From positions 1 to 64,000 of IMG/VR virus record IMGVR_UViG_3300005528_000063: 64,000 bases of DNA. One strand, given 5' to 3'. The position numbers and the translations under genes are program-made. This stretch comes from a virus. The notes under the pieces are model-generated. The model made no database searches. It saw only the letters and a program-made list of their open reading frames with translations, and was not told the DNA's origin. This document shows positions 1 to 64,000 of this stretch, piece by piece; position 1 is the stretch's first letter, and every line of letters starts with the position of its first letter.

Positions 1-863
1 CGACGCTCGTACTTGTAGTCCTCCGCACCGGACAGGTACGCCTCCGGGTTGAGCAGGTCGAGCCGGTGCCAGTAGCGGAGGAACATGCCACCGACCTCCT
101 CCCCAACGCAGCCGACGGCGAGCGGCCGGTAGATGGGGTCTTTCTGCTCGTACCCACAGGCACCCGCCGCAGCGAAGCAGCGGACGAGGTACGTCCACGT
201 CCGCAGGTTGGGGAAACTCATCGTCTCGTCGTCCTGCGGCAACTTCTCACGGGCGTCCGGTGCCGACCGGAGGAACGCCTCGACCAGCGAGCCGAACTGC
301 GGCAGGTGGTCTGCCCAGTGGGCGGGGACGAGTGGGAAAGTGGGTGCCTCCCACTCGCAGCCACGCCGCAGGCCGGTGAACCAGTGTTCGTAGTCCACCT
401 CCCAGTCGAAGTGGACGAACCGTGCCCGCATGGCAGGGGCCAGAGGCACCGCATTGGGGCACAGTTCCGGCGGGTTGCACGCCCCGACGATGATGGTCGA
501 GGCGGGCATCACGTACTCACCGATCCGCCGCTCCGACAGGACCGACAGCATGCCGCCCTGCGTAGCGGACGGCACGTTCGTCACCTCGTCCACGAGGACG
601 AGGGCCATGCCGTCTTTGGTCTTGTCCCACAGGGAGGTGGGCAGCATGCGAACCACGCCAGCCTTGTGGTCAGGGGTGGGGTAGCCCGAGAAGTCTTCGG
701 GCAGATGGGTTGCACCGTACAGCGGGACGAACGTGCGTCCCAGTGCGTGGGCAAGAGCCTCCCACGTGGAAGACTTGCCAACGCCGGTGCCACCACGCAC
801 GAGGACGGGGGCCACCTGACAGGCGAGGAATGCTGGGGTGTTGCCCAGTGATATACGGGACAT
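1..863 (-). CDS. MoxR-type AAA+ ATPase, copy A (3' end beyond left edge)
   Basis: Starts at the ATG whose complement is 861-863 and runs off the left edge. The visible 287 residues contain a Walker A motif GGTGVGKS (about residues 24-31), a Walker B LVLVDE (88-93) and an ordered sensor region beginning GACNPPELCP. This is the MoxR/CbbQ style of AAA+ ATPase, which typically works with a VWA-domain partner to remodel protein complexes; such a partner lies at 61,481-62,938. The C-terminal half is closely related to, but diverged from, the partial gene at the right edge, so the two are paralogs. A 13-bp core of the repeated box and a G/C-rich hairpin lie in its leader. Confidence 0.85.
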   Translation of the reverse strand, partial: MSRISLGNTPAFLACQVAPVLVRGGTGVGKSSTWEALAHALGRTFVPLYGATHLPEDFSGYPTPDHKAGVVRMLPTSLWDKTKDGMALVLVDEVTNVPSATQGGMLSVLSERRIGEYVMPASTIIVGACNPPELCPNAVPLAPAMRARFVHFDWEVDYEHWFTGLRRGCEWEAPTFPLVPAHWADHLPQFGSLVEAFLRSAPDAREKLPQDDETMSFPNLRTWTYLVRCFAAAGACGYEQKDPIYRPLAVGCVGEEVGGMFLRYWHRLDLLNPEAYLSGAEDYKYER

Positions 864-941
864 GGGATTGCTCCAGAGTTGGGGAACCAATGGCGATGGG
901 AGGGGGGGCAGCACGATGCTACCCCCGCTCCCCGAAAACAG

Positions 942-954
942 GACTCCGCAGCGG
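942..954 (-). repeat. Leader box, copy 1 (13-nt core)
   Basis: Core GACTCCGCAGCGG on the plus strand; the full consensus in the direction of transcription is CCGCTGCGGAGTCTG. This copy has one extra base in the AGTCTG part. It lies 16 nt after the stop of the gene at 971-1306 and 78 nt before the start of ATPase copy A. A hairpin (GGGGGTAGCA paired with TGCTGCCCCC) separates it from that gene. Confidence 0.7.
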
Positions 955-970
955 GAAACTGCGGGCGAAA

Positions 971-1306
971 CTAGAAGCCGCTGCCCACGCAGAAGGTGTA
1001 CGCCAGCGGCGGCATCGGCTGGGGTGCCGGCTCCACCGCAATGGCGTCCACCACGACCGGCTTGGGGTCTGCCGGCTGACGGAGGCCGAGCAGCCGCCGG
1101 CCCATGCGTGTCCGCCTCCTCATGCCCTTGAGTTGGGGGAGGACGACGCCACGCTTGGCGAGGGTTTCGATCCTGCCATGCAGGGTCGAGATGTGAAGTC
1201 CACTAACCTCGCAGAACTCTCGCACGCTCATGCCACTGCTGACAGCGTCGTTGTAGTCAGCGAGGAAACGGGTCACGTCGATGGTCAACTTACGCAACTT
1301 GCGCAT
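971..1306 (-). CDS. Helix-turn-helix protein, paralog A
   Basis: 111 residues; start supported by GGAG upstream on the minus strand. The N-terminal 55 residues read as a helix-turn-helix of the phage type: 'F..DYN.A...G.SVREFCEVSGL..STLHGRIETL' followed by the signature KRGVVLPQLK. The protein at 3063-3482 has the same arrangement and the same KRG..LPQLK ending of the domain, so the two are paralogs. The remaining 50 residues are basic, then proline-rich, with no recognised domain. Probably DNA binding; target unknown. Confidence 0.7.
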   Translation of the reverse strand: MRKLRKLTIDVTRFLADYNDAVSSGMSVREFCEVSGLHISTLHGRIETLAKRGVVLPQLKGMRRRTRMGRRLLGLRQPADPKPVVVDAIAVEPAPQPMPPLAYTFCVGSGF

Positions 1307-1335
1307 GGGTACTCTCCGTAGTGATGGGTTGGGAA

Positions 1336-2211
1336 TCAGACAGAAGCAGCGAGCAAACGGTTGACGGCGACGGCCTGCTTGACCTGCTCGATGGCAGCGG
1401 TCAGGTCGGGCATCGGCTTGCCAAGCACCTGCTCGTACACACGAACCTTCTCAAGGAACCGGTCGGCCCGGTTCAACCGGATGCTGATGGAGCGGTCGGC
1501 CATTCCGCCTGCCGCCTCCATCACCTCGTCCATGATCTCGGTCAGCCCGGCCTGCACCTCCGCACCGAGCCGGTCAAGCACGTGCATGACGGTGTCGGGG
1601 TCGGATGCGATCTCGACTTGATGCACCGTGAAGCGGGGACCATCGGCAGCGGGGCCAAGCACGATCCCGGCGAACGTGCGGAAGTCCTCAAGCGTCTGGC
1701 CAAGCAGGAACCACACGCCGCCGTCGTCCTTGAGCGGCGTGGCCCGCCAGTGCCGGAGCATCTTGACCACCACCTGCCCGACCACGCTGGACGGGAGGTA
1801 GTCGCGCATGGCAATCACCTTCTGGGAGAGGTGGTGCTCCAGGCTGGCTGTGTTCGTTGTGCCGTTCGTCTTGAGGACGGACACGCCCCAGTTGACGTCG
1901 ATGTTGGCGGAGAACAGGAACTGGTAGTCGTTCTCGGCGGCGCCCGGAATGGTGCGTCGCGCCTCGAACGACGAGGGATCGTCAAGCTGCCGGCTGACGA
2001 TGGGTTGCTTGCGCCGCTTGACGCAGAGCACATCGGCCACCCGCTTGACTGCCTCCCGCAGGACAGTGGTGCGGGCAGGCATGGCCGGGACGAATCGCCC
2101 GCAGCCGACAGCTTCGGCCGCATCGTACAGCCTCGCCCGCTCCACCTTGCGGGTGTTGAGGATGCAGATGCCGCCGAGTCCGGCGCCGATGGTGAGGGTT
2201 GTCGGTGTCAT
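1336..2211 (-). CDS. Conserved phage protein of unknown function, 291 aa
   Basis: Long, well-formed gene with AGGAG seven bases before the ATG. The sequence is a mixed alpha/beta protein with a hydrophobic, glycine-rich start (TLTIGAGLGGICIL) and helical C-terminal half rich in charged residues. No catalytic motif is recognised. Similar-sized proteins near MoxR-type ATPases occur in other phages, but I cannot name the family with confidence. It is in the same minus-strand run as the ATPase and the HTH gene, without a box in front. Confidence 0.75.
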   Translation of the reverse strand: MTPTTLTIGAGLGGICILNTRKVERARLYDAAEAVGCGRFVPAMPARTTVLREAVKRVADVLCVKRRKQPIVSRQLDDPSSFEARRTIPGAAENDYQFLFSANIDVNWGVSVLKTNGTTNTASLEHHLSQKVIAMRDYLPSSVVGQVVVKMLRHWRATPLKDDGGVWFLLGQTLEDFRTFAGIVLGPAADGPRFTVHQVEIASDPDTVMHVLDRLGAEVQAGLTEIMDEVMEAAGGMADRSISIRLNRADRFLEKVRVYEQVLGKPMPDLTAAIEQVKQAVAVNRLLAASV

Positions 2212-2220
2212 GGTCGCTCC

Positions 2221-2397
2221 TTAGTGGGTGATGAGAGACTTCTGCGCTGCCGTGAACCGTCGGTGCAGCACGGCGAACGCCGCCGCCTGCTCGTGTTCAT
2301 CGAACTGCTCTCGATCCTCTGCCGATTCGTGCAGCGCAGTGAGGATGAGGTCGATCTCGTGTGGCGTGAGGGTCACGGTAGTAGTCGGGTATGGCAT
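2221..2397 (-). CDS. Small hypothetical protein, 58 aa
   Basis: Start at 2397 is chosen over an upstream ATG because AGGAGG sits directly before it. The protein (VTLTPHEIDLILTALHESAEDREQ...) is two predicted helices with an acidic centre. Small helical proteins of this kind are common in phage accessory regions; function unknown. Confidence 0.65.
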   Translation of the reverse strand: MPYPTTTVTLTPHEIDLILTALHESAEDREQFDEHEQAAAFAVLHRRFTAAQKSLITH

Positions 2398-2425
2398 GGC
2401 CCGCCTCCTGTGTGAGTGTACATAA

Positions 2426-2605
2426 TTACACGTAATGTTCAATGGGTACGACGGCTGCGGACGGGTTGTCTAGCTCGCCGTTCTCGGCTGCGAGTCCCGT
2501 CCACACGACGATCTCGCCGCCCATTGACTCGTCCACGATTGCCTTTGGAAACGTGGCGACGATGAGTTCCATCAGCTCGGCCACCGTCTTGCTTCTGGTC
2601 TTCAT
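2426..2605 (-). CDS. Small acidic protein, 59 aa, nested in the HTH frame
   Basis: ATG at 2605 preceded by AAGGAGGA at ideal spacing. The product begins MKTRSKTVAELMELIVATFP and contains DESMGGEIVVWTGL, a fold-like amphipathic pattern rather than a random frame. It overlaps, in another reading frame, the last 167 nt of the winged-helix gene at 2439-2840. Together the ribosome site and protein-like composition argue that this frame is translated. Confidence 0.65.
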   Translation of the reverse strand: MKTRSKTVAELMELIVATFPKAIVDESMGGEIVVWTGLAAENGELDNPSAAVVPIEHYV

Positions 2606-2840
2606 GCTCTTCCTCCTTGAGGGTCAGGTAGTTCTTCCAGTCGAACGCAATCGCGCGGGAGCCGGCGCGCACGACGACTCCCTTCTTCTGCAACGAATGC
2701 ACAACCACCGTCACGTACCCGGCGCTGGCCCAGCCGAAGTAGCTGGCGATCTCCCGGTAGGACGGCTGGCATCCAGTGAAGAGCACCGCTCTTGCGACAA
2801 GGTGCAGTAGCTCCCGCTCTCGTGATGTCAGGTCAGGCAT
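2439..2840 (-). CDS. Winged-helix DNA-binding protein (LexA-type N-domain)
   Basis: Start MPDLTSRE at 2840. Residues 1-65 resemble the LexA N-terminal winged helix: 'LTSRERELLHLVARA...PSYREIASYFGWAS.GYVTVVVHSLQKKGVV'. No peptidase domain follows. The natural end of the domain is near LTLKEEEHEDQK; beyond this the frame continues for about 50 low-complexity residues that overlap the 59-aa gene in another frame, so the true C-terminus is doubtful. Could be a transcription regulator for the accessory arm. Confidence 0.6.
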   Translation of the reverse strand: MPDLTSRERELLHLVARAVLFTGCQPSYREIASYFGWASAGYVTVVVHSLQKKGVVVRAGSRAIAFDWKNYLTLKEEEHEDQKQDGGRADGTHRRHVSKGNRGRVNGRRDRRVDGTRSRERRARQPVRSRRTH

Positions 2841-3060
2841 GCGGCTCCTCCTCGATGTACGCCGTGTCACCAGCGAGGCGAACGCTGCCTCTGCCAGCCA
2901 TCACGACATGGGGTTGCTTGCTCCGCTCCCTGCTACGCACAGGGACAGAGCACACGATGTTGCGAACCAAGAGACACGCACCCTTGTGGTGTACCGTCAT
3001 GACCGGACGGCCCGCCTTCTGAGAGGCGGGCTTGTTGTAGTGAAAGAAGAACGCTGGCAT
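2833..3060 (-). CDS. Conserved small phage protein, 75 aa
   Basis: ATG at 3060 with GGAGGGTG upstream; a GTG six bases earlier is less likely. Begins MPAFFFHYNKPASQKAGRPV and has the pattern 'TVHHKGACLLVRNIVC', which I recognise as a recurring small phage protein with an Arg/Pro-rich C-terminal half (RSRERSKQPHVVMAG). Function is unknown. Overlaps the winged-helix start by 8 nt. Confidence 0.75.
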   Translation of the reverse strand: MPAFFFHYNKPASQKAGRPVMTVHHKGACLLVRNIVCSVPVRSRERSKQPHVVMAGRGSVRLAGDTAYIEEEPHA

Positions 3061-3062
3061 GT

Positions 3063-3482
3063 TCACCCTCCGATGGTGATGGTGATGGAGTTCGCACGCT
3101 CCTCGATCGTGAAGCGCGGGCCGGAAGAAACAGTGATGCTCGCCTGCCGTGCCGCCGGCGGGGCAGTCACGACCTCGCCTGACAGAGGAGCCAGAAGCTT
3201 GGACTTCTTGCGCCGCTTCCGCAGCACGCCCGAAGTCCAGCCGTTGTGGCCGGCGGCGTTGTGCTTGTTGCCTGCGTTGCCGTGCTTGAGCTGAGGCAGC
3301 TCGATGCCTCGCTTCCGAAGCTGATTGAACCGCTGGGTCACGAGTCCATAAGGGATGCCCGTGAGTTCCGCAAACTCAGTGCGGGTCAGGCCGGCGGCGG
3401 CGGCCTCGTTCCAGCGGGCTACGAACTCGGCGGTCCAGTTGCCGAGCCGACGGGCCTTGCGGGTGGTGGTGGCGTGGGGCAT
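3063..3482 (-). CDS. Helix-turn-helix protein, paralog B
   Basis: Start at 3482 (MPHATTTRKARRLGNW) follows GGAG. Residues 12-65 repeat the domain of the 971-1306 protein: 'F.ARWNEAAAAGLTRTEFAELTGIPYGLVTQRFNQLRKRGIELPQLK'. A Lys/Arg-rich linker follows, then a C-terminal beta-like segment ending SITITIGG. Likely DNA binding. Confidence 0.7.
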   Translation of the reverse strand: MPHATTTRKARRLGNWTAEFVARWNEAAAAGLTRTEFAELTGIPYGLVTQRFNQLRKRGIELPQLKHGNAGNKHNAAGHNGWTSGVLRKRRKKSKLLAPLSGEVVTAPPAARQASITVSSGPRFTIEERANSITITIGG

Positions 3483-3498
3483 ATCACTCTCCTTGTGA

Positions 3499-3576
3499 TT
3501 AGGAACGGAGACTGCGGAACAGTTCCGCAATCAGATGAAGCACGATCAGAACTAGGCGCATCTCGTCGTCGGACAT
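3499..3576 (-). CDS. Micropeptide, 25 aa
   Basis: ATG at 3576 with GGAGG five bases upstream. Product is MSDDEMRLVLIVLHLIAEL followed by FRSLRS: an acidic start, one short hydrophobic helix and a basic tail, as in a small membrane-associated peptide. Supported by ribosome site and position only. Confidence 0.45.
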   Translation of the reverse strand: MSDDEMRLVLIVLHLIAELFRSLRS

Positions 3577-3595
3577 GGGTGCCTCCTTGCGTGTG

Positions 3596-3617
3596 GCCGC
3601 AGCGTCCATGCTGCGGC
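3596..3617 (-). terminator. Intergenic hairpin, 8-bp perfect stem
   Basis: GCCGCAGC, six-base loop, GCTGCGGC between the genes at 3622-3834 and 3499-3576. There is no T-run, so it may be an RNA-stabilising or processing hairpin rather than an intrinsic terminator. Confidence 0.5.
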
Positions 3618-3621
3618 ATGG

Positions 3622-3834
3622 TCAGTCGCCTCGCACCATGCAGGCGACCTGTTCAGCGGACATGAACTCAGGCGGGAGCGGAGGGCGTGCGCCGTCCGCT
3701 CGCTCGACGGCCTCGAGCAGATCGAGCAGGCACTCGACCGGCACAAGAACCCTGCCTCCCTCGTAGTACCTTGCTCGTGCGAGCAGGACTTTGGAGCAGG
3801 TCAGGACGTCGGCCTCCGGTTCTTCGGGCCTCAT
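3622..3834 (-). CDS. Small hypothetical protein, 70 aa
   Basis: Start MRPEEPEADV at 3834 follows AGGAGG at seven bases; an upstream ATG lacks a ribosome site. Pattern 'LLARARYYEGGRVLVPVECLLDLLEAVERADG..PPLPPEF' suggests a compact helical protein. No family recognised. Confidence 0.6.
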   Translation of the reverse strand: MRPEEPEADVLTCSKVLLARARYYEGGRVLVPVECLLDLLEAVERADGARPPLPPEFMSAEQVACMVRGD

Positions 3835-3863
3835 GGGGAACCTCCTTGTTGGTGGATGGAACA

Positions 3864-3877
3864 CAGACTCCGCAGCG
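3864..3877 (-). repeat. Leader box, copy 2
   Basis: CAGACTCCGCAGCG, one base short of consensus at its 3' end. It lies 5 nt after the stop of 3883-4308 and 29 nt before the start of 3622-3834, the shortest leader of the set. Confidence 0.7.
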
Positions 3878-3882
3878 AGAAC

Positions 3883-4308
3883 TCACAGGTCTTCCCACTG
3901 CTTCTCGATGAGGTCGGCAAGCTGATCGAACGGCATGGCGCAGTCATCGTTCAGGTACGTGATGCCGTGATCGCCGGCATACGGTTCGTCGCTGTCAACG
4001 TGGATGCTGGGGTCAGCCTCACTAATCCCGGCCCACTGTCGCACTGAATGCGGCAGGTTGTCGGTGTGGTTGGCGTACGCACCGACGTGCCTGTGGCTGC
4101 CGCACAGCCTGCTTGGCAGCGACTCCCACTGGTAGTGGTAATCGGAGCCGTCGGCGTTGTGCTCCTTGCGGTGCAGTTCACAGAGCACGCCCAAGCAGCA
4201 GTAGCTGAGCGAGCCGTCTTCGTTAGCAAGCCGAAGCTCGCCGGTGGTCTGCGCGTACTGGCCGGAGCGCAACGCGGCCACCCACTTCTCCATCACTTCG
4301 CGGTTCAT
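3883..4308 (-). CDS. Conserved phage protein (YCCLGVLCEL family), 141 aa
   Basis: Start MNREVMEKWVAALRSG at 4308 after AGGAGA. The segment 'GELRLANEDGSLSYCCLGVLCELH' is a recurrent signature in phage and prophage proteins of unknown function. The middle has His/Tyr/Trp-rich motifs and the end (LNDDCAMPFDQLADLIEKQW) is helical. A metal- or ligand-binding role is possible from the Cys and His residues but unproven. Confidence 0.75.
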   Translation of the reverse strand: MNREVMEKWVAALRSGQYAQTTGELRLANEDGSLSYCCLGVLCELHRKEHNADGSDYHYQWESLPSRLCGSHRHVGAYANHTDNLPHSVRQWAGISEADPSIHVDSDEPYAGDHGITYLNDDCAMPFDQLADLIEKQWEDL

Positions 4309-4326
4309 CGAATCGTCTCCTGTCTT

Positions 4327-4367
4327 GGAAGGGAAAGCGGGGCCGCCGCACAGTGCGGCAGCCCCGC
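4327..4367 (-). terminator. Intrinsic terminator-like hairpin
   Basis: On the minus strand: GCGGGGC-T-GCCGCA, short loop, TGCGGC-G-GCCCCGC, then TTTCCCTTCC. The stem has 13 pairs with one mismatch. It lies between box copy 3 and the ribosome site of the 3883-4308 gene. Confidence 0.75.
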
Positions 4368-4373
4368 AGAACA

Positions 4374-4388
4374 CAGACTCCGCAGCGG
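4374..4388 (-). repeat. Leader box, copy 3
   Basis: Perfect CAGACTCCGCAGCGG. 11 nt after the stop of the amidotransferase gene and 65 nt before the start of 3883-4308, with the hairpin at 4327-4367 in between. Confidence 0.85.
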
Positions 4389-4399
4389 GAAAGCTGCGA

Positions 4400-5266
4400 T
4401 CACATGAGGTCGTGCAGCGCCTCGATGCCGGCGTGCCCGTACATCTCGAACACATCGTGCAGCGTCTCCTTGCGGAAGCCGAACGCACGCAGGTCGTCGA
4501 ACCGCATGTCGGTGTAGAACTGCGCCTCGTCCTCGAGCGTCTCGATCTCGTCCTCGTCGTAGCCCATCGGGTCACGCAGTAGGGTGGACTGCCGCTCGCA
4601 CAGGAGCAGGTCGTCGTTGTCACGCTCGGTGTCGAGAGCCTGCTCCTTGCTGCTGCTGTACGTCAGCCGGCTAGTGGACGGACCCATGTCACGCCAGTTG
4701 TAGTAGCCGATCGAGGTGTAGCGCGACGCCTTGTAGCCGTCGTTGCTGTACCAGTGACCGTCGCTGGCCCACGTGCCAGACTTGGCGTTCCAAATGCCGT
4801 GCTTGCCGTCCGCACGGAGGAAGCAGAACTTGCTGCCAGTGTGTGCCATCTCCTGCGTGTAGGTCATGTCTTGGTGCAGGAAGAAGTCAGGGTCACGACT
4901 GTGCATCGGCTTGAGAACCAGCTCGTTGAAGTGCCACGTGTCGGACATGGCCTGGTTCACGTTGCGTTCGATGCTGACGATGCCGTTGTGGATCATGGCG
5001 AGGTCGCCACTCACCATGAACGGATGGCAGTTGAGCAAGTCGGTGTTGCCGTGCGTCGCCCACCGAAAGTGGATGAGTGCTTGGCAGTCGGAGTACGGCT
5101 CGAACGCAGCGCGGAACTCCGAGTAATCGCCGAGCCCATGCACGACAAGCAGATGGCCGTCGTGCAGGGCAGCGAATCCCCACGAGTGCGGGTTGGAATC
5201 ATGGCCGTTCTCGTAGGCAGTCCAGTCGGGCTTGGTTTCGGCGGGCTTGTAGATGGCGAGGCACAT
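4400..5266 (-). CDS. Class II glutamine amidotransferase-like protein
   Basis: 288 residues from MCLAIYKP. Class II amidotransferases (Ntn hydrolases) use an N-terminal cysteine exposed after Met removal, and Cys2 fits. Further family motifs are visible: 'HSWGFAALHDG', 'IHFRWATHGNTDLLNCHPF' and 'DLAMIHNGIV', matching the glutamine-binding H-R-AT-G...N-HPF and HNG patterns. It would release ammonia from glutamine for a partner ligase. The neighbouring gene at 5320-6573 is an amidoligase, a pairing seen in other phages. GGAG precedes the start. Confidence 0.85.
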   Translation of the reverse strand: MCLAIYKPAETKPDWTAYENGHDSNPHSWGFAALHDGHLLVVHGLGDYSEFRAAFEPYSDCQALIHFRWATHGNTDLLNCHPFMVSGDLAMIHNGIVSIERNVNQAMSDTWHFNELVLKPMHSRDPDFFLHQDMTYTQEMAHTGSKFCFLRADGKHGIWNAKSGTWASDGHWYSNDGYKASRYTSIGYYNWRDMGPSTSRLTYSSSKEQALDTERDNDDLLLCERQSTLLRDPMGYDEDEIETLEDEAQFYTDMRFDDLRAFGFRKETLHDVFEMYGHAGIEALHDLM

Positions 5267-5319
5267 AAGCAAATGCTCCGGGAAGGGATGATGGATGGAT
5301 GAACACGACACGGGCAGGG

Positions 5320-6573
5320 CTAGGCGGCGGGCCTGTCCTTGCGTGGCTTGATCGACGGCTTGGCAACGGTCGCGTACATGCGGCCGAACGCCGAGTCGTG
5401 CGAGCGGAGCCACTGATCCAGCTCGATGTACTCGAAGCGTGCGTCAGTGGTGCCGAGCCACGTGAGGAACTCGGAAGGGCTGAGCTTGCGGCGATCCGCC
5501 GACGCCTGCCGGCAGAAGTCACGCACAGCCAGCACGTAGCACAGGTTCTTGAGGATGTTGCTCGTCCGTGCGGACGGGCGGAAGATGCGGAACTCCACCG
5601 TGCTACGCTTCACGTTGAGCGCCGAATACTTGTCGCTCTGGTCGGCCTTGTAGGGCAGGCCGGTCGAGACAAGCGAGCGGTGCGACGGGAAGGATGCGTA
5701 GTGCGTCTGCCGGCAGGCGATGTCGATGTGGAATCCGACGTTCGCCGGCAGGTGCATGAAGCACAGCATCTTGCCGAGCGTGAGCGGCGAGACACTGGAT
5801 CGGGCGAGATGCACGTGCATCCCGCACTGCGTCCTCGACCACGCACTGACCGCACCGTTGCCGAGCCGCCCGTCGGGGAACGCAGCGGCGAGTACCTTGC
5901 GGTGCTCGTCGAGCGTCATCGGGACGGTGACGAACTCGAGGCCGGTGCGATCGGGCAGGCTGCCGTCACGCTTGGCAATCGAGCCGTGACCGTACTCCGT
6001 ACCGCCGATCAGCTCGCGGTACGCCCTGTTGTACGGGCCGCAGATCGCTGCGGCTCCGGTGTTGGCGTCCTCGTGGCCGATGCACTCGAACTCGAAGGCG
6101 ACGGTCGGAGTCGTCCGCTTGTAGCGGTGCCGCTTCCAGCCCGTCTCCTCAAGCACGCACGTGTTGTATTCGAGCAGCTCGTCGCTGCCCTCCTCGCGGC
6201 ACGAGCAGTCCTCGTCGTTGCAGTCACCGTTCTCGCAGCGAGAGCCGCCGTGACGGTGATACCCGTCCTCGTTGTACCCGTCGCTGTCGTACCCGTCGCA
6301 GTCGAAGCCGTCCCGGTCGTAGCCCTCGCTGTCGTACCCCTCCTCGTTGTAGCCGGAGCGGTCGTAGCCATCGCAGTCGTAGCCGTATTCGTCAAAGCGG
6401 CCGCCGTCCCGCGTGCGTCCTTCGTCGTTGAACACCGTGCCGGTATCGCAGTGGATGCCGTGCTCGTCGAAGCCGCCCTCGTCGAAGGCGGTGCCGTTCA
6501 GGTGGACGCCGTCGCTGTCGAACCCGTACTCGTCACGCTCGACCTCGTTGGAGGCGGTGTTCTCGGTGGTCAT
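5320..6573 (-). CDS. Amidoligase with nine tandem GY pentapeptides
   Basis: 417 residues; start supported by GAGGAG. Residues 61-105 are nine uninterrupted pentapeptides of form [DN]-x-x-G-[YF] (DEYGY, DCDGY, DRSGY, NEEGY ...), preceded by looser copies from residue 14 and followed by a Cys/Glu-rich spacer. From about residue 155 the protein matches the COOH-NH2 (glutamine-synthetase-like) amidoligase fold: VAFEFE (158-163), GLEFVTVP (211-218), CGMHVHL (250-256), VEFRIFR (326-332). The family forms amide or peptide bonds using ATP. With the amidotransferase next door it probably modifies a peptide or protein; the substrate is unknown. Confidence 0.85.
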   Translation of the reverse strand: MTTENTASNEVERDEYGFDSDGVHLNGTAFDEGGFDEHGIHCDTGTVFNDEGRTRDGGRFDEYGYDCDGYDRSGYNEEGYDSEGYDRDGFDCDGYDSDGYNEDGYHRHGGSRCENGDCNDEDCSCREEGSDELLEYNTCVLEETGWKRHRYKRTTPTVAFEFECIGHEDANTGAAAICGPYNRAYRELIGGTEYGHGSIAKRDGSLPDRTGLEFVTVPMTLDEHRKVLAAAFPDGRLGNGAVSAWSRTQCGMHVHLARSSVSPLTLGKMLCFMHLPANVGFHIDIACRQTHYASFPSHRSLVSTGLPYKADQSDKYSALNVKRSTVEFRIFRPSARTSNILKNLCYVLAVRDFCRQASADRRKLSPSEFLTWLGTTDARFEYIELDQWLRSHDSAFGRMYATVAKPSIKPRKDRPAA

Positions 6574-6590
6574 GTCGAAACTCCTCAGGG

Positions 6591-6625
6591 GAAAAAGAAA
6601 AGGCCGCCCCACGTTGGGACGGCCT
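6591..6625 (-). terminator. Intrinsic terminator
   Basis: Minus strand: AGGCCG-T-CCC, loop, GGG-G-CGGCC followed by TTTTCTTTTT. It stands between box copy 4 and the amidoligase start, so it terminates or attenuates entry into the amidoligase gene. Confidence 0.85.
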
Positions 6626-6635
6626 GCCTCAGAAC

Positions 6636-6650
6636 CAGACTCCGCAGCGG
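6636..6650 (-). repeat. Leader box, copy 4
   Basis: Perfect CAGACTCCGCAGCGG, directly abutting the stop codon of 6651-6929 and 62 nt before the amidoligase start. Confidence 0.85.
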
Positions 6651-6929
6651 TCAATCGCGGCCGGCTTCGGTCGTGTCGGGGCAGGTGGCAAGCCGCATCG
6701 CCAGCTCTTCCTTGAACGTGTCCAGCGGAGTCGATGTAAAGCACGACACCTGCGTGAACGTCAGCGGGAAGGCTTTCTGAAACGCCCGAAGAAGCAGCAG
6801 GAAATCAACGGAAACCCCTTCTCCGAATCCGTTGTCGAAATAAACGCGACCGTCCTTGCTCAGTTCGAGTTCGCAATACTCATCTCCAACGTCTTCCGTC
6901 AGAACCAAATAGCCGCAGTCAACGTGCAT
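6651..6929 (-). CDS. Hypothetical protein, 92 aa
   Basis: Start MHVDCGYLVL at 6929 after AAAGG. Beta-rich first half (GYLVLTEDVGDEYCELELSKDGRVYFDNG) and a helical second half. No family recognised. Flanked by a box on each side. Confidence 0.6.
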   Translation of the reverse strand: MHVDCGYLVLTEDVGDEYCELELSKDGRVYFDNGFGEGVSVDFLLLLRAFQKAFPLTFTQVSCFTSTPLDTFKEELAMRLATCPDTTEAGRD

Positions 6930-6951
6930 GGCGTTGCCTTTCTGTGGCATG

Positions 6952-6993
6952 AAAACGCGAAGGGGCCAGCCGCCACCGTGACGACTGGCCCCT
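6952..6993 (-). terminator. Terminator-like hairpin
   Basis: GGGGCCAG paired with CTGGCCCC with a small inner helix, followed on the minus strand by TTCGCGTTTTC. Lies between box copy 5 and the 6651-6929 start. Confidence 0.7.
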
Positions 6994-7004
6994 GCCGCAA
7001 GGAT

Positions 7005-7019
7005 CAGACTCCGCATCGG
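7005..7019 (-). repeat. Leader box, copy 5
   Basis: CAGACTCCGCATCGG, one substitution. Three nt after the stop of 7023-7259; 75 nt before the start of 6651-6929. Confidence 0.8.
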
Positions 7020-7022
7020 GGA

Positions 7023-7259
7023 TCACCGCAGGTTGCGGCGACGGCCCACCATCGGCGTGAGCAGCCGGTCGATCTCGCGGTCGATCTCGACGGTGTTGTC
7101 GGCGGATTCCTCCGCACGCTCACGGGTACGGAAGGGGCCGACGGGCTCGGCTGCACTCCGCAGGTCGAGGAAGTAGAAGCCGCCCGTGCCAGGAAACACG
7201 ACGGCTTGGGCCTTGTTCTCGCTGTTGCGAACGACGGACAGGGTGGGATCGAGAGGCAT
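7023..7259 (-). CDS. Hypothetical protein, 78 aa
   Basis: Start MPLDPTLSVV at 7259 after AGGAG. Contains 'VVRNSENKAQAVVFPGTGGFYFLDL' (beta strands) and an acidic/basic helical end. It looks like a small soluble single-domain protein. Function unknown. Confidence 0.6.
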   Translation of the reverse strand: MPLDPTLSVVRNSENKAQAVVFPGTGGFYFLDLRSAAEPVGPFRTRERAEESADNTVEIDREIDRLLTPMVGRRRNLR

Positions 7260-7283
7260 GGTGATGCTCCTTATGGAACGTGG

Positions 7284-7316
7284 AAACAAAAACGCCCACC
7301 GCGAAGTGCGATGGGC
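7284..7316 (-). terminator. Intrinsic terminator
   Basis: Minus strand: GCCCATCGC, ACTTC loop, GCGGTGGGC, then GTTTTTGTTT. Between box copy 6 and the 7023-7259 start. Confidence 0.85.
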
Positions 7317-7367
7317 GAACCTGCGAGTGCAGGATTGGGGGCTGGCTGGCAGCACAGCCCCGTATCC

Positions 7368-7382
7368 CAGACTCCGCAGCGG
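7368..7382 (-). repeat. Leader box, copy 6
   Basis: Perfect CAGACTCCGCAGCGG, two nt after the stop of 7385-7774 and 108 nt before the 7023-7259 start. Confidence 0.85.
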
Positions 7383-7384
7383 GA

Positions 7385-7774
7385 TCACTCGCACGCCAGC
7401 TCGATGGCATCGACGGCATCGGCGTGCTTCAGCCCCTTGATGGCGGCCTTGAGCAGGTTGCCGTCATCCACGCGGAGCGAGCCGGCGAAGGCACCGTTCA
7501 CGTAGAGCAACACGTACTCGCGGCCCTGCTTCGTGGTGGAACCCTTGCGGAACTCGACGCCGCCGCACTCGACGCCCTCGACCTCCTCCGCCTCGACCTT
7601 CGGCTTGGCCTTCGCCTTCGCCGGAGCGGCTTTCTTGCCCTTCTGCGACTCACGCCACTTGCGGAGAGCCTCAGGGTTGCCCTTCTTCTTGCCCTTCGCC
7701 TTGCTCTTGGCAGGGGCGGCGGCAGCGTCAGCGATCAGCGAGAACAGCATCTTCTTCATCATGTCAGCGTTCAT
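7385..7774 (-). CDS. Lys/Ala-rich protein, 129 aa
   Basis: Start MNADMMKKMLFSL after GAGGAG. Residues 15-60 are low-complexity Lys/Ala/Pro (KAKGKKKGN, KAAPAKAKAKPK), like a histone-tail nucleic-acid-binding segment. A compact C-terminal domain follows (FRKGSTTKQGREYVLLYVNGAFAGSLRV). Possibly a nucleic-acid-associated protein; unproven. Confidence 0.6.
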   Translation of the reverse strand: MNADMMKKMLFSLIADAAAAPAKSKAKGKKKGNPEALRKWRESQKGKKAAPAKAKAKPKVEAEEVEGVECGGVEFRKGSTTKQGREYVLLYVNGAFAGSLRVDDGNLLKAAIKGLKHADAVDAIELACE

Positions 7775-7862
7775 AGGAAACTCCTCAGTGAAAGAACCAA
7801 TCGAACCTTCCCGCGAAGTGCGGGTGGAGGCGGGGTGACGAAGTGCCAGCCCCGCTACCATC

Positions 7863-7877
7863 CAGACTCCGCAGCGG
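7863..7877 (-). repeat. Leader box, copy 7
   Basis: Perfect CAGACTCCGCAGCGG. Four nt after the stop of 7882-8061; 88 nt before the 7385-7774 start. Small hairpins (CCCGC/GCGGG and GCGGGG/CCCCGC) lie between. Confidence 0.85.
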
Positions 7878-7881
7878 CAAA

Positions 7882-8061
7882 TCACGCCACCAACAGCACG
7901 GGATACCGACTCTCGACCACGACCTCGCCGGACGGGTCGTAGAGCACGAACAGACGCACGCCATCGGCGTTGTCGTTGATGTACCAGCGGGCCTTGCGTT
8001 CATTGGGGAACACGTAGGAACGACGCTCGCCGGACGACGCGATGGAAACGACGCAGAACAT
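7882..8061 (-). CDS. Small hypothetical protein, 59 aa
   Basis: Start MFCVVSIASSGERRSYVF at 8061. Beta-rich small protein ending 'LFVLYDPSGEVVVESRYPVLLVA'. No family recognised. Confidence 0.6.
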   Translation of the reverse strand: MFCVVSIASSGERRSYVFPNERKARWYINDNADGVRLFVLYDPSGEVVVESRYPVLLVA

Positions 8062-8119
8062 GGGACGCTCCTGTGGAACGTGGGAGGGACGCGGCAGCCG
8101 AACGTCGGCCACCGAAAGA

Positions 8120-8134
8120 CAGACTCCGCAGCGG
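8120..8134 (-). repeat. Leader box, copy 8
   Basis: Perfect CAGACTCCGCAGCGG, four nt after the stop of 8139-8336 and 58 nt before the 7882-8061 start. Confidence 0.85.
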
Positions 8135-8138
8135 CGAA

Positions 8139-8336
8139 TCACGCGGCCGGAGGGACGAACGCCACCTTGCTCGTGTCAGCGAGAGCCGACTCGATCGAGT
8201 GGTGGAAGGAGATGCTCTCGTACTCGTAGTCGAGGCTCACGAACTCCGACGCAGTGATGAAGGAGTTGAATGGCCCCGCTACGACGTTGGGTTGATCTGC
8301 GGGGGTGTGAACGACGATCCAGATTGGCTCACGCAT
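8139..8336 (-). CDS. Small hypothetical protein, 65 aa
   Basis: First gene of the minus-strand arm. Begins MREPIWIVVHTPADQPNVV; alpha/beta pattern with 'FNSFITASEFVSLDYEYESISFHH'. GGAGG lies before the ATG. Function unknown. Confidence 0.6.
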   Translation of the reverse strand: MREPIWIVVHTPADQPNVVAGPFNSFITASEFVSLDYEYESISFHHSIESALADTSKVAFVPPAA

Positions 8337-8396
8337 GGTGCAGTCCTCCGGTCGGTCACAACGACGGTCACTCGCCGTCGTCGTGCCGACACAACA

Positions 8397-8411
8397 CAGA
8401 CTCCGCAGCGG
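8397..8411 (-). repeat. Leader box, copy 9 (no upstream gene)
   Basis: Perfect CAGACTCCGCAGCGG lying in the 5' leader of the first minus-strand gene, 60 nt before its start. Because no gene ends upstream of it, this copy shows that the box belongs to the leader of the following gene rather than to the 3' end of the previous one. Confidence 0.85.
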
Positions 8412-8680
8412 GGATGGACGCCGTTTCTTGTGGCGTTTCGGGGGTCGGTTCCGCCTCTCCGTCGAGAGCGTGAAGCGGAAGTCCTTGTGCCTGCACGGGT
8501 TGCGGGGGGCGTAAGAAAGGAAGGGCGGAGCCCCCCCAGCCGCCGCACGTATCAGTTACGTTCCCCTCCTGGATTTTTTCCCAGTTTCATTGCGGCCCCT
8601 CTTGTGCGGGGGTAGCTGTTCGCCCGTCCACCGCTATACTGGGCGCCTGTATAGTCCCCCCTTGTACAGAAAGGGTTCCG
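8412..8680. promoter_or_regulatory. Divergent control region
   Basis: 269 bp with no gene, between the leftward arm and the rightward SSB operon. It holds the leftward leader with an ACGCC/GGCGT hairpin near 8420, a T-run and an ACGT pair around 8550-8575, and an operator-like dyad CTATAC...GTATAG at 8634-8654. TATACT at 8635-8640 is a good -10 box for rightward transcription; no clear -35 is seen at the usual distance. Confidence 0.6.
8634..8654. promoter_or_regulatory. Operator-like dyad over a -10 box
   Basis: CTATAC, nine bases (containing GGCGCC), GTATAG: a perfect 6+6 inverted repeat overlapping TATACT, 27 bp before the SSB start. A repressor bound here would block SSB transcription. 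Inference from position and symmetry. Confidence 0.5.
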
Positions 8681-9055
8681 ATGATCGAGGCAACCGTGAC
8701 GGGCAACGTGGGTCGTGCCCCAGAGATGAAGACGACCCGCAGTGGCAAGCAGATGGCTGGGTTCTCGGTGGCGTCCACCGAGAAGAAGGACGCCCCGACC
8801 ACGTGGGTGGAGGTCGTGTGCTTTGACGAGCAGGCCGACATGGTCTGCCAGAGCCTCCAGAAGGGCGACAGAGTCGTCGTGACCGGCAGGATGGCTCTGG
8901 AGACGTTCCAGAAGAAAGACGGCTCTACGGGCTTCTCATTGCGTCTAATGGCAAATGAGGTGGGCCGTAGCCTCCGGTGGCCCCGCCGGTCGGCTGGCGC
9001 CATGCCGGAGGTGTCGGAGGTCGAGGAAGAGGCTGCCGAGCCGATCCCGTTCTGA
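8681..9055 (+). CDS. ssb: Single-stranded DNA-binding protein
   Basis: 124 residues with the bacterial SSB OB-fold pattern: 'ATVTGNVGRAPEMKTTRSGKQMAGFSVASTEKK....TTWVEVVCFDEQA..V..SLQKGDRVVVTGRM' and an aromatic 'ETFQKKDGSTGFSLRLMANEV'. The C-terminus is acidic and ends EPIPF, resembling the DDIPF tip that recruits partner proteins. It would coat single-stranded DNA for the exonuclease/Erf recombination system. First gene of the rightward operon. Confidence 0.9.
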   Translation: MIEATVTGNVGRAPEMKTTRSGKQMAGFSVASTEKKDAPTTWVEVVCFDEQADMVCQSLQKGDRVVVTGRMALETFQKKDGSTGFSLRLMANEVGRSLRWPRRSAGAMPEVSEVEEEAAEPIPF

Positions 9056-59599: not shown

Positions 59600-60121
59600 A
59601 TGCGACTCACGGACGAGCAGCGGCAGCTTGCAGAGCAGGCGATGGAGATAGTGCCGAAGGCGATCATCGCCTTCCGGTGCCGGTATCCCACGCTCCGCAA
59701 GCAGGTGGCGAGCATCGACGCAGAGAGCGTGGCGTACCTTGCCATCTGCCGGGCGGCTACGACGTATGATCCTGCCCAGTCCAAGATCACCACGTACTTC
59801 TCGATGGCCGTGCGGAATGCTCTCCTCAAGGAGATAGACCGCAACCGCCGGGCGAGATACGACTCGCCGGATCGAGTGCCGCTGGAGCTGGCGGAGGCGC
59901 TGGCGATAGCCCCGTCCAGCATGTCCACCAAACTCCAGACGGCAATCGCCCGGCTGCCGGCAAAGGCCCGCAAGCTCATCCACCTCAGGTTCTACAAGGG
60001 GCTGAGCATGCGAGAGATAGGCGAGCAATCGAGGTGCGACCCCCGCACTATACGGCGACGGCTTTCCGTCGCTTTGGAGATGCTACAAACTCTTTTGCAA
60101 AGCGAGCCTTTGCTGCCTTGA
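59600..60121 (+). CDS. Small sigma-70-like factor
   Basis: 173 residues. Region 2-like: 'DAESVAYLAICRAATTYDPAQSKITTYFSMAVRNALLKEIDR' (about 40-82). Region 4-like HTH: 'AIARLPAKARKLIHLRFYKGLSMREIGEQSRCDPRTIRRRLSVALEML' (about 115-162). No regions 1 or 3, as in ECF-sized sigma factors. It could direct host RNA polymerase to phage promoters. The 3' end overlaps the convergent serine recombinase gene by 74 nt. Confidence 0.75.
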   Translation: MRLTDEQRQLAEQAMEIVPKAIIAFRCRYPTLRKQVASIDAESVAYLAICRAATTYDPAQSKITTYFSMAVRNALLKEIDRNRRARYDSPDRVPLELAEALAIAPSSMSTKLQTAIARLPAKARKLIHLRFYKGLSMREIGEQSRCDPRTIRRRLSVALEMLQTLLQSEPLLP

Positions 60122-60788
60122 GCGCACGCGAGATGGAGTTGATGTTCCACCGCTTGCCGTTGGGTCGAGTCACGCAGTACATGTGGTTCGTGATCCGCTC
60201 CAGGCTGGCGCCAGACTGACGCAGGGCCACCATCTCGGCCACCTGCCCACGCTCAAGAGGGTCGGGCAGGTAGTAGGAATCCTTGCCGCGACCGCACTTG
60301 CGCCACCCGATTGGTGCGTGCTTACTGTACGGCTTGCCCTCCGCCCGCTTGGCCCGCAGGCTGTCGGTTGTGCGCTGCCGGATGAACTCCAGTTCCAGCT
60401 CGGCAAACGCAGACAGGATGGTGAACACGCACCGTCCGATGGGCGTGCTGGTGTCGAGGCCCAAGTCCAGCGACGAGAACGTCACGTCCTTGCGTTGCAG
60501 CAAGGCCATCGTCTGCGCTGCGTCCACGACCGAGCGGAAGGCCCGGTCCAGCTTGGCCCACACGATCTTGTCTCCAGGCTGCACGAGCGCCCACAGCTTG
60601 CGGCCGTCGTCCCTCTCGAACATTGGCTTGCTGCCGCTGGTAGCTGAGTCGTAGAGCCACCCGCCATAGGTGAACCCGGCGCTCAGGAGCGTGCGGTTGA
60701 TGAACTCCTCGCAAGTAGATCGCTGGTGCGATTCGGTGATGGTCTGGCGCCCAGTGCTGGCGCGCCCGTAGGCGTACACGGTAGGCAT
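60048..60788 (-). CDS. Serine recombinase (resolvase/invertase family)
   Basis: 246 residues from MPTVYAYGRAST; AGGAG before the ATG. Nucleophile S11 in YGRAST, with 'WAKLDRAFRS' (catalytic Arg pair) and 'LGLDTSTPIGRCVFTILSAFAELELEFIRQRT' (long E helix) all present. A short recombinase/HTH C-domain follows (GKPYSKHAPIGWRKCG, ...ITNHMYCVTRPNGKRWNINSISRALK). Larger than a simple resolvase, smaller than a large serine integrase. May invert or resolve a segment; the repeats at 59359 are close by. Confidence 0.85.
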   Translation of the reverse strand: MPTVYAYGRASTGRQTITESHQRSTCEEFINRTLLSAGFTYGGWLYDSATSGSKPMFERDDGRKLWALVQPGDKIVWAKLDRAFRSVVDAAQTMALLQRKDVTFSSLDLGLDTSTPIGRCVFTILSAFAELELEFIRQRTTDSLRAKRAEGKPYSKHAPIGWRKCGRGKDSYYLPDPLERGQVAEMVALRQSGASLERITNHMYCVTRPNGKRWNINSISRALKAAKARFAKEFVASPKRRKAVAV

Positions 60789-63270: not shown

Positions 63271-64000
63271 TCAGGACTGAACCATCGACATCAGCTTCGC
63301 CATCACGTCCTTCGGTGGCGACCAGCCGTCTGGGCGAACGCCACCCTTACTGACGGGCGTCCAGAAGGAACGGAACTGCATGAGGAACGACTCGATCTCG
63401 TGCTCGCCGATGGTGATGAACACCTTCGCCGCATTGAGCCAGCGGTCTGCGCTGGTGTTGTCACGCAGCCCCTTCACCAGCCCAGTGAGCAGGCAGATGT
63501 TGGCATCCGGCCGCTTCTCGTACTCGTACTTCTCGTCGCCAGAGAGGAACGCCTCTGGGTTGGCGAGGTCGAGGTTGTGCCAGTACCGCAGGAACTCACC
63601 GCCGACCGCATCACCCACGCAGCCGGTCGCCAGCGGCCGGAACATCGGGTGCTTGCGGTCGTAGCCGCACGACTCGGCGGCGGCGAAGCACTTCACCAGA
63701 TACGTCCACGTGCGTGGGTTCGGGAACGACATGGTTTCGTCGTCGGTCGGCAGCTTCTCCAGGCAGTCGGGTGCCGACCGGAGGAACGCCTCGACCAGCG
63801 AGCCGAACTGCGGGAGCAGATCGACCCAGTGTTCCGGCACGACCGGGAACTCAGGCGCCGACCACTGGCAGCCAGCACGCAGGCCGGAGAACCAGTGCTC
63901 GCGGTCGATCACCCAGTCAAAGTGGAAGAACCGAGCCCGCATCGCAGGCGACAGTGGCACGGCGTTGGGGCACAGCTCGGGCGGATTGCACGCACCCACG
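63271..64000 (-). CDS. MoxR-type AAA+ ATPase, copy B (5' end beyond right edge)
   Basis: Visible part begins within the sensor region (GACNPPELCPNAVPLSPAMRARFFHFDW) and runs to the stop at 63271, ending DVMAKLMSMVQS. It aligns with the second half of copy A (1-863) through PNPRTWTYLVKCFAAA, FLRYWHNLDL and LSGDEKYEYEKRPD. The Walker A and B motifs would lie past the edge. First or early gene of the operon leading to the VWA protein. Confidence 0.8.
   Translation of the reverse strand, partial: VGACNPPELCPNAVPLSPAMRARFFHFDWVIDREHWFSGLRAGCQWSAPEFPVVPEHWVDLLPQFGSLVEAFLRSAPDCLEKLPTDDETMSFPNPRTWTYLVKCFAAAESCGYDRKHPMFRPLATGCVGDAVGGEFLRYWHNLDLANPEAFLSGDEKYEYEKRPDANICLLTGLVKGLRDNTSADRWLNAAKVFITIGEHEIESFLMQFRSFWTPVSKGGVRPDGWSPPKDVMAKLMSMVQS

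Follow-up and report, generated by a model that had tools for sequence, protein, structure and literature searches.

Box-and-hairpin leaders repeated before the genes of a phage operon: a candidate RNA gate acting gene by gene

The DNA analysed here, referred to as the window, comprises positions 1–64,000 of the 65,377-base record IMGVR_UViG_3300005528_000063 from an uncultured virus, and the element in question is a 15-bp box that, in most copies together with a hairpin, forms a leader before nearly every gene of a leftward operon. A scan of the window for the box found nine copies (six exact, two with one mismatch and one with two), all of them on the minus strand, in one arm and inside this single operon, whose start adjoins the divergent ssb gene. 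When up to three mismatches were allowed there were 19 matches in the window, against a shuffle mean of 6.6 and a shuffle maximum of 15. A tenth copy, also on the minus strand, lies just past the window end at 64452–64465 of the record. The features of the cassette are as follows, the boxes being those of the scan.

8554–8582, minus: candidate promoter of the leftward operon, a conserved GGGAAA-N17-GTAACT block also present in relatives with other boxes
8397–8411, minus: box 1, in the slot-1 leader, first of the leftward operon
8351–8390, minus: slot-1 hairpin without a T-run, covarying in 17 leaders
8139–8336, minus: slot-1 gene, 65 amino acids (aa); a different gene stands behind the same leader in other phages
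8120–8134, minus: box 2
8092–8114, minus: leader-2 hairpin, triloop A-CGU-U
7882–8061, minus: gene 2, 59 aa
7863–7877, minus: box 3
7810–7855, minus: leader 3, two hairpins by sequence reading, the second with an alternative pairing with the box
7385–7774, minus: gene 3, 129 aa
7368–7382, minus: box 4
7293–7361, minus: leader-4 hairpins, the last (7317–7293) followed by TTTTTGTTT, terminator-like
7023–7259, minus: gene 4, 78 aa
7005–7019, minus: box 5, one mismatch
6961–6993, minus: leader-5 hairpin, 15 bp, triloop; its leader class precedes eight gene families in relatives
6651–6929, minus: gene 5, 92 aa
6636–6650, minus: box 6
6601–6625, minus: terminator-like hairpin with TTTTCTTTTTC; its leader class has a T-run in 17 of 17
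5320–6573, minus: amidoligase-like gene, so called from a tblastn match to a putative amidoligase and a weak Pfam match that falls short of the curated cut-off
4400–5266, minus: glutamine amidotransferase-like gene without its own box (weak Pfam match)
4374–4388, minus: box 7, with upstream hairpin 1 at 4399–4380
4337–4367, minus: leader-7 hairpin, 14 bp, T-rich tail
3883–4308, minus: gene 7, 141 aa
3864–3878, minus: box 8, one mismatch, in a leader of 29 nucleotides (nt) without a hairpin
3622–3834, minus: gene 8, 70 aa
2439–2840, minus: LexA-type winged-helix protein, a candidate regulator, conserved in nearly all close relatives
940–954, minus: box 9, two mismatches, with upstream hairpin 1 at 964–946
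898–932, minus: leader-9 hairpin, triloop A-UCG-U, covarying in 13 leaders
1–861, minus: gene 9, MoxR-like ATPase by sequence reading (no family search), cut by the record end

An initial annotation of the window had listed nine boxes, and eight of its positions stand, but the copy that it placed at 942 is really at 940–954 and has two mismatches. The distances it gave were borne out in the window: 29–108 nt from box to start codon and 0–16 nt from the preceding stop codon to the box. It had hairpins after most boxes, and one follows in eight of the nine copies, there being none after the copy at 3864. Its picture of a promoter and then a terminator ahead of each gene does not hold in detail. 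Textbook terminators number only three in the window (4367–4337, 6625–6601 and 7317–7293), which makes a terminator at every gene an overstatement, and T-runs are restricted to certain slots. A promoter role for the box itself finds no support: no −35/−10 pair is present, no sigma-70-like site was found in 800–9000, and a promoter-like block instead lies upstream of box 1. The dyad CCGC-T-GCGG pointed out in the first nine bases is present but not conserved, since positions 0 and 3 vary and only GCGG is nearly invariant, and the motif profile of the leaders rules it out as a functional palindrome.

Across the relatives, the elements follow the order box, GNTTNYR, hairpin, Shine-Dalgarno sequence and start codon. 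The box was used to collect leaders and its own conservation is therefore partly by construction, from which the flanks, the hairpins and the box families B and C described below are exempt. A motif profile of 132 leaders consisted of a near-invariant TGCGGAGTC followed at fixed spacing by GNTTNYR, with T at −3/−4 and G or C at −10/−9. No second conserved block was found beside the box, and a promoter of the extracytoplasmic function or sigma-70 type within it was rejected on that ground. A hairpin was present in 110 of the 125 distinct leaders (88%), a low threshold that about 50% of composition shuffles also pass; it most often begins about 6 nt past the box, and triloops, mostly closed by A-U, occur in about 60% of leaders. 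In the slot-1 leader 92% of cells were paired, and double changes occurred at nine pairs and in 24 cells, compared with shuffle means of 5.4 pairs and 11.2 cells (none of 500 reached the observed values) and no more than three pairs in slid controls. The moxR leader had double changes at 8 of 17 pairs. The slot-1 covariation includes G-U intermediates and is thus RNA-like, supporting an RNA structure. One leader class, before a gene of about 30 aa, has no hairpin, yet box, TTNTR and ribosome site are kept. T-runs (at least 5 of 9 positions) mark a terminator-like subset: they were found in 33% of leaders against 4% of shuffles, and their distribution follows the slots. The 45 leaders of slots 1–3 have none; all 17 leaders before the amidoligase gene have one, as do 13 of 17 leaders of class l2 and 8 of 9 before gene family f7. 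These T-run leaders have no space for a promoter between T-run and start codon. The ACUUC loops of slots 3 and 4 could pair with GGAGU; the window leaders 3 and 4 (7810–7824 and 7293–7317) have loops ACUUC/ACUC complementary to the GGAGU of the box. Pairing of the box with a terminator arm, as in a classical antiterminator, is not general, as hairpin sequences vary between slots while the box is constant.

Leaders belong to positions and not to genes. The comparison covered 172 leaders in 26 leader classes and 43 gene families, unrelatedness of families being judged at a BLAST E-value of 1e-4. The slot-1 leader class comes first wherever it is found but precedes 10 mutually unrelated gene families, and eight families stand behind leader class l4; the amidoligase and MoxR-like genes are constant behind theirs. 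In one relative, G007, the slot-1 hairpin is followed by the slot-2 gene, the two being joined at a point past the hairpin and ahead of the ribosome site. The box itself varies in concert within genomes. Position 13 is changed from T to C in 10 of the 11 boxes of G012 and in all three of its relative L197 (slot-stratified permutation, p~0.0005), and position 9 from A to C in 5 of the 11 boxes of G010 (p~0.001 by the same procedure); such a pattern could come from a reader that co-evolves with the box or from copies homogenising one another. The ribosome-site context is apparently also genome-specific (leaders L178, L174 and L097), being CGGAGG in G012, TGGAGG in G008 and L097 and TGAGGAG elsewhere, so concerted variation may extend to this part of the leader.

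A terminase profile search reached relatives at 61–74% terminase identity, in two of which the box has been replaced and the layout is unchanged. There are thus three unrelated boxes: family A, the window type, and families B and C (G309, G310). Six leaders of G309 carry AGGGTCGGCTCT, one of the six having GTGTCGG, and six leaders of G310 carry CAGGGGYYGGCGAGTTCT; in both phages the leaders run from box through a T-rich stretch, usually a hairpin, and a ribosome site to the start codon. In both, an upstream hairpin with a U-rich loop takes its 3′ arm from the 5′ half of the box, and a matched double change is seen in one copy of G309 (CACT..AGTG versus CCCT..AGGG in the other copies). Two hairpins fold in C leaders and in several B leaders, and an upstream hairpin of at least 7 bp is present in 39 of 115 family A leaders, about 7 being expected. 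G309 and G310 yielded few counterparts of the genes in the window's cassette arm; the layout therefore outlives its genes. Neither a repeated box nor the promoter block was seen in the stretches fetched from G311 and G312 (62–65% terminase identity).

No sigma-70-type promoter was found in 800–9000. The GGGAAA-N17-GTAACT block upstream of box 1 is common to box families A, B and C, with its second half altered in places; in 8400–8582 and the relatives it is followed by a conserved G-run, and this arrangement is likewise common to all three box types. Relatives with box A have an inverted repeat TTCACG..CGTGAA before box 1. On the other side of the divergence, a dyad CTATACTGGGCGCCTGTATAG at 8634–8656 precedes ssb with a −10-like element TATACT (TATGCT/TACACT in relatives).

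An exact scan of IMG/VR returned the box in 117 stretches, mostly as single matches out of context, and in about 25 contigs, which belong to the phage group of the window and are likewise uncultured, the copies cluster (up to 13) within one arm and point the same way. When 11 virus records were searched over their full length, the box with its TTNYR tail lay on one strand and in one arm, save for a few stray one-mismatch matches, and a reversed-pattern control was nearly absent from them. Conservation of box positions in relatives, whose absence the initial annotation would have counted as a refutation, was looked for and found. The 20 contigs encoding a relative of the 1336–2211 gene belonged, by contig name or inspection, to the box-bearing group. 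The same box and tail gave 24 single matches in cellular genome contigs, about the number expected by chance (approximately 30, our own estimate), none in leader context. No DNA match was found in cultured phages, where protein matches were distant only, no Rfam family matched the leaders at gathering score, and a literature search turned up no relevant paper on any of the three box sequences. Among 294 Planctomycetota genomes, one contig of a metagenome-assembled genome had a clear terminase relative (35% identity), and repeats of the box kind were not seen on it; on this sequence comparison the host of these phages is perhaps a member of the Planctomycetota. A few exact boxes lie within coding sequences, in the same orientation and without the T-rich tail (L045 at 1059 and 4801, L071 at 3062, L083 at 2643 and, as reverse complement, L091 at 5630). 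They represent about four independent events, with far fewer than one expected, and are possibly remnants of fused cassettes.

The reading that we favour, while holding it somewhat short of probable, is that box and hairpin form an RNA element between cistrons that a trans-acting factor recognises and that gates read-through gene by gene. We propose that one promoter upstream of box 1 would produce a polycistronic RNA of the leftward operon. Between genes, some or all copies would first fold into a hairpin that the 5′ half of the box closes, followed in the RNA by a conserved single-stranded GGAGUCUG with a U-rich NUUNUR, and then by a strong hairpin, often with an A-NNN-U triloop and in one-third of cases a U-run, before the ribosome site and start codon. 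This factor, which may be a protein of the phage or the host, or else RNA polymerase, would recognise the box in nascent RNA and decide at each leader whether polymerase continues past the hairpin; the gate would be open at the first slots and, at slots such as that of the amidoligase gene, closed by default through a terminator. For the T-run leaders regulated read-through is the simplest inference, because a terminator between stop and start codons with no room for a promoter after it means that polymerase must read through to reach the gene; in the other leaders processing or pausing is possible. As each gene lies between one leader and the next box, genes could be exchanged or lost with the gates undisturbed. 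The suggestion of the initial annotation that the leaders act gene by gene by attenuation, antitermination or RNA recognition agrees with the covariation of the hairpins, with their terminator-like subset and with the conservation in relatives, but its promoter part is unsupported.

Several observations weigh against gated read-through. Two-thirds of leaders have no clear T-run and one class has no hairpin, so termination is not the whole story, and processive antitermination would not require a site before every gene. The upstream hairpin is strong in only about one-third of family A leaders, and a shifted native control gave upstream energies nearly as low (−8.3 versus −8.8). Homogenisation between copies could also give concerted box change. 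No antitermination protein was identified, and the LexA-type protein, conserved in close relatives, was not found in the G309 and G310 stretches searched.

One alternative is that the leader serves processing or stability: a nuclease would cut the U-rich strand between box and hairpin to give monocistronic mRNAs shielded by a hairpin at the 5′ end, the box being, as part of the same proposal, the binding site of a processing or protecting factor. Boxes directly after stop codons, a U-rich single strand between hairpins, hairpins without T-runs in most slots and structure kept while sequence varies are all consistent with this. We nevertheless consider it rather unlikely, as it leaves the slot-specific T-runs unexplained and a 15-nt box would be superfluous if structure and U-richness alone direct cutting. 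Another possibility, less likely again, is that the box is a promoter after all, as a single 25-bp block with a TTNT melting region and a purine start at +21, used by a non-canonical or phage-modified RNA polymerase, with the hairpin shielding the 5′ end. The contiguous box and TTNTR kept even in the hairpin-less leader, the conserved R at +21 and the oriented arrangement of one per gene would fit, and polymerase specificity could drive box replacement between lineages. However, a terminator straight after a promoter makes little sense. RNA is also the level suggested by the conserved promoter-like block that precedes box 1 and, in families B and C, by the box pairing with arms upstream of it. 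No phage RNA polymerase was matched by Pfam or PHROGs in the proteins scanned (not every open reading frame was scanned). A virion protein of 1134 aa is uninformative here, with no family match and a mainly helical model of low confidence (pLDDT 51) that is too poor to use; an N4-like virion RNA polymerase is unsupported.

It is improbable that the boxes are stoperator-like operators, sites at which elongation is halted by a phage protein (the LexA-type protein, for instance) bound to the asymmetric box as DNA. The repeats are asymmetric, oriented and intergenic, the phages encode LexA-type and other helix-turn-helix proteins, and genome-wide concerted change of the sites is what immunity specificity predicts. 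On the other hand, the boxes are limited to one arm and tied to RNA-structured leaders, the LexA-type gene was not found in the G309 and G310 stretches searched, and no tyrosine integrase was found in the proteins scanned. We regard RNA-level recognition in trans, whether for gating or for processing, as most likely, ahead of a promoter or a DNA stoperator. A mere recombination site or integron-like cassette boundary with no expression role is very improbable: genes do swap behind leaders, boxes directly follow stop codons and some members have a serine recombinase gene, but the junctions examined (G007 slot 1, slot l4) fall between hairpin and ribosome site and not in the box, leader order is kept, no recombinase is common to all, and hairpin covariation with G-U intermediates and slot-specific T-runs imply an RNA role. 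Integron cassette arrays combine an attC site behind each gene with a tyrosine integrase; no integrase turned up among the scanned proteins, and no search was made for attC structure.

No known family found matches the leader element. The closest phenomenon is provided by the start-associated sequences (SAS) and extended SAS (ESAS) of cluster K mycobacteriophages. These are short asymmetric repeats in 11–19 copies, found only in the non-structural arm, mostly in one orientation, associated with the starts of varied gene families, about half with an inverted repeat, and nearly absent from hosts; SAS is a 13-bp GGGATAGGAGCCC in the ribosome-site region, 3–9 bp before the start codon, and ESAS holds a putative SigA-like promoter upstream with 17–18 bp spacing (PMC3203893, PMC11373665, PMC12699233). 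The leaders described here share the oriented boxes confined to the non-structural arm and the varied gene families behind them. Unlike SAS, the window boxes are of unrelated sequence, end 29–108 nt before the start codons, follow the upstream stop codon and have a hairpin between box and ribosome site, and unlike ESAS they have neither a sigma-70-like promoter in 800–9000 nor a second conserved motif block. Stoperators of cluster A mycobacteriophages, the sites of the L5/TipsytheTRex repressor, are 13-bp asymmetric intergenic sites oriented with transcription, found genome-wide, other transcription units included, and bound as DNA by the immunity repressor, with no hairpin leaders described (PMC9283540). 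Asymmetry, orientation with transcription and short intergenic positions are common to both, whereas the present boxes are on one strand and one arm, with RNA-structured leaders. The HK022 put or conAn-type elements are RNA elements near the operon start that modify the elongation complex to cross many terminators (PMC8955417). The leftward operon similarly has several internal terminator-like hairpins that the same polymerase would have to cross, but its element stands before nearly every gene, many without a terminator, and has no Rfam match. The put RNA has two hairpins near the promoter and acts on polymerase; here two hairpins fold in C and several B leaders, in A the first is strong in only about one-third, and the arrangement recurs at each gene and not just close to the promoter. 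Lambda nut sites have in RNA a linear conserved boxA and then a short boxB hairpin. A conserved linear box followed by a hairpin in leader RNA is common to both, but no boxA-like sequence was seen, the hairpin sequence is not conserved and the element is repeated for each gene.

Other features of the record may be noted here. Two related helix-turn-helix-like small proteins (3063–3482 and 971–1306; 39% identical over 59 aa) flank the LexA-type protein in the same operon. A serine recombinase (Resolvase domain) is encoded at 60048–60788, at the end of the leftward arm, with matches in 6 of 20 sequences including the window, several of them incomplete. Record positions 63517–65377 repeat 6–1734 in the same orientation at 77–82% identity, covering the MoxR-like gene, its leader and part of the 1336–2211 gene, and this reflects either a genuine duplication or the joining of sequence from a related phage.

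SAS/ESAS-like oriented repeats in non-structural arms have been known since 2011 without an assigned function, and the present case is independent and unrelated. It is also the richer natural experiment, with its 125 distinct leaders, a single layout shared by three unrelated boxes, box variants that change in concert and genes that have been swapped; it can therefore be asked which part of the leader is recognised, by what, and at the RNA or DNA level. More guardedly than for the gate itself, we raise the possibility that this is a previously undescribed form of phage gene control, in which an RNA gate stands before nearly every gene of an early-type operon, the box is rewritten genome-wide in each lineage together with its reader, and genes are exchangeable as cassettes behind fixed, position-specific gates. 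Such a layout may explain how a long operon stays expressible while its accessory genes are exchanged.

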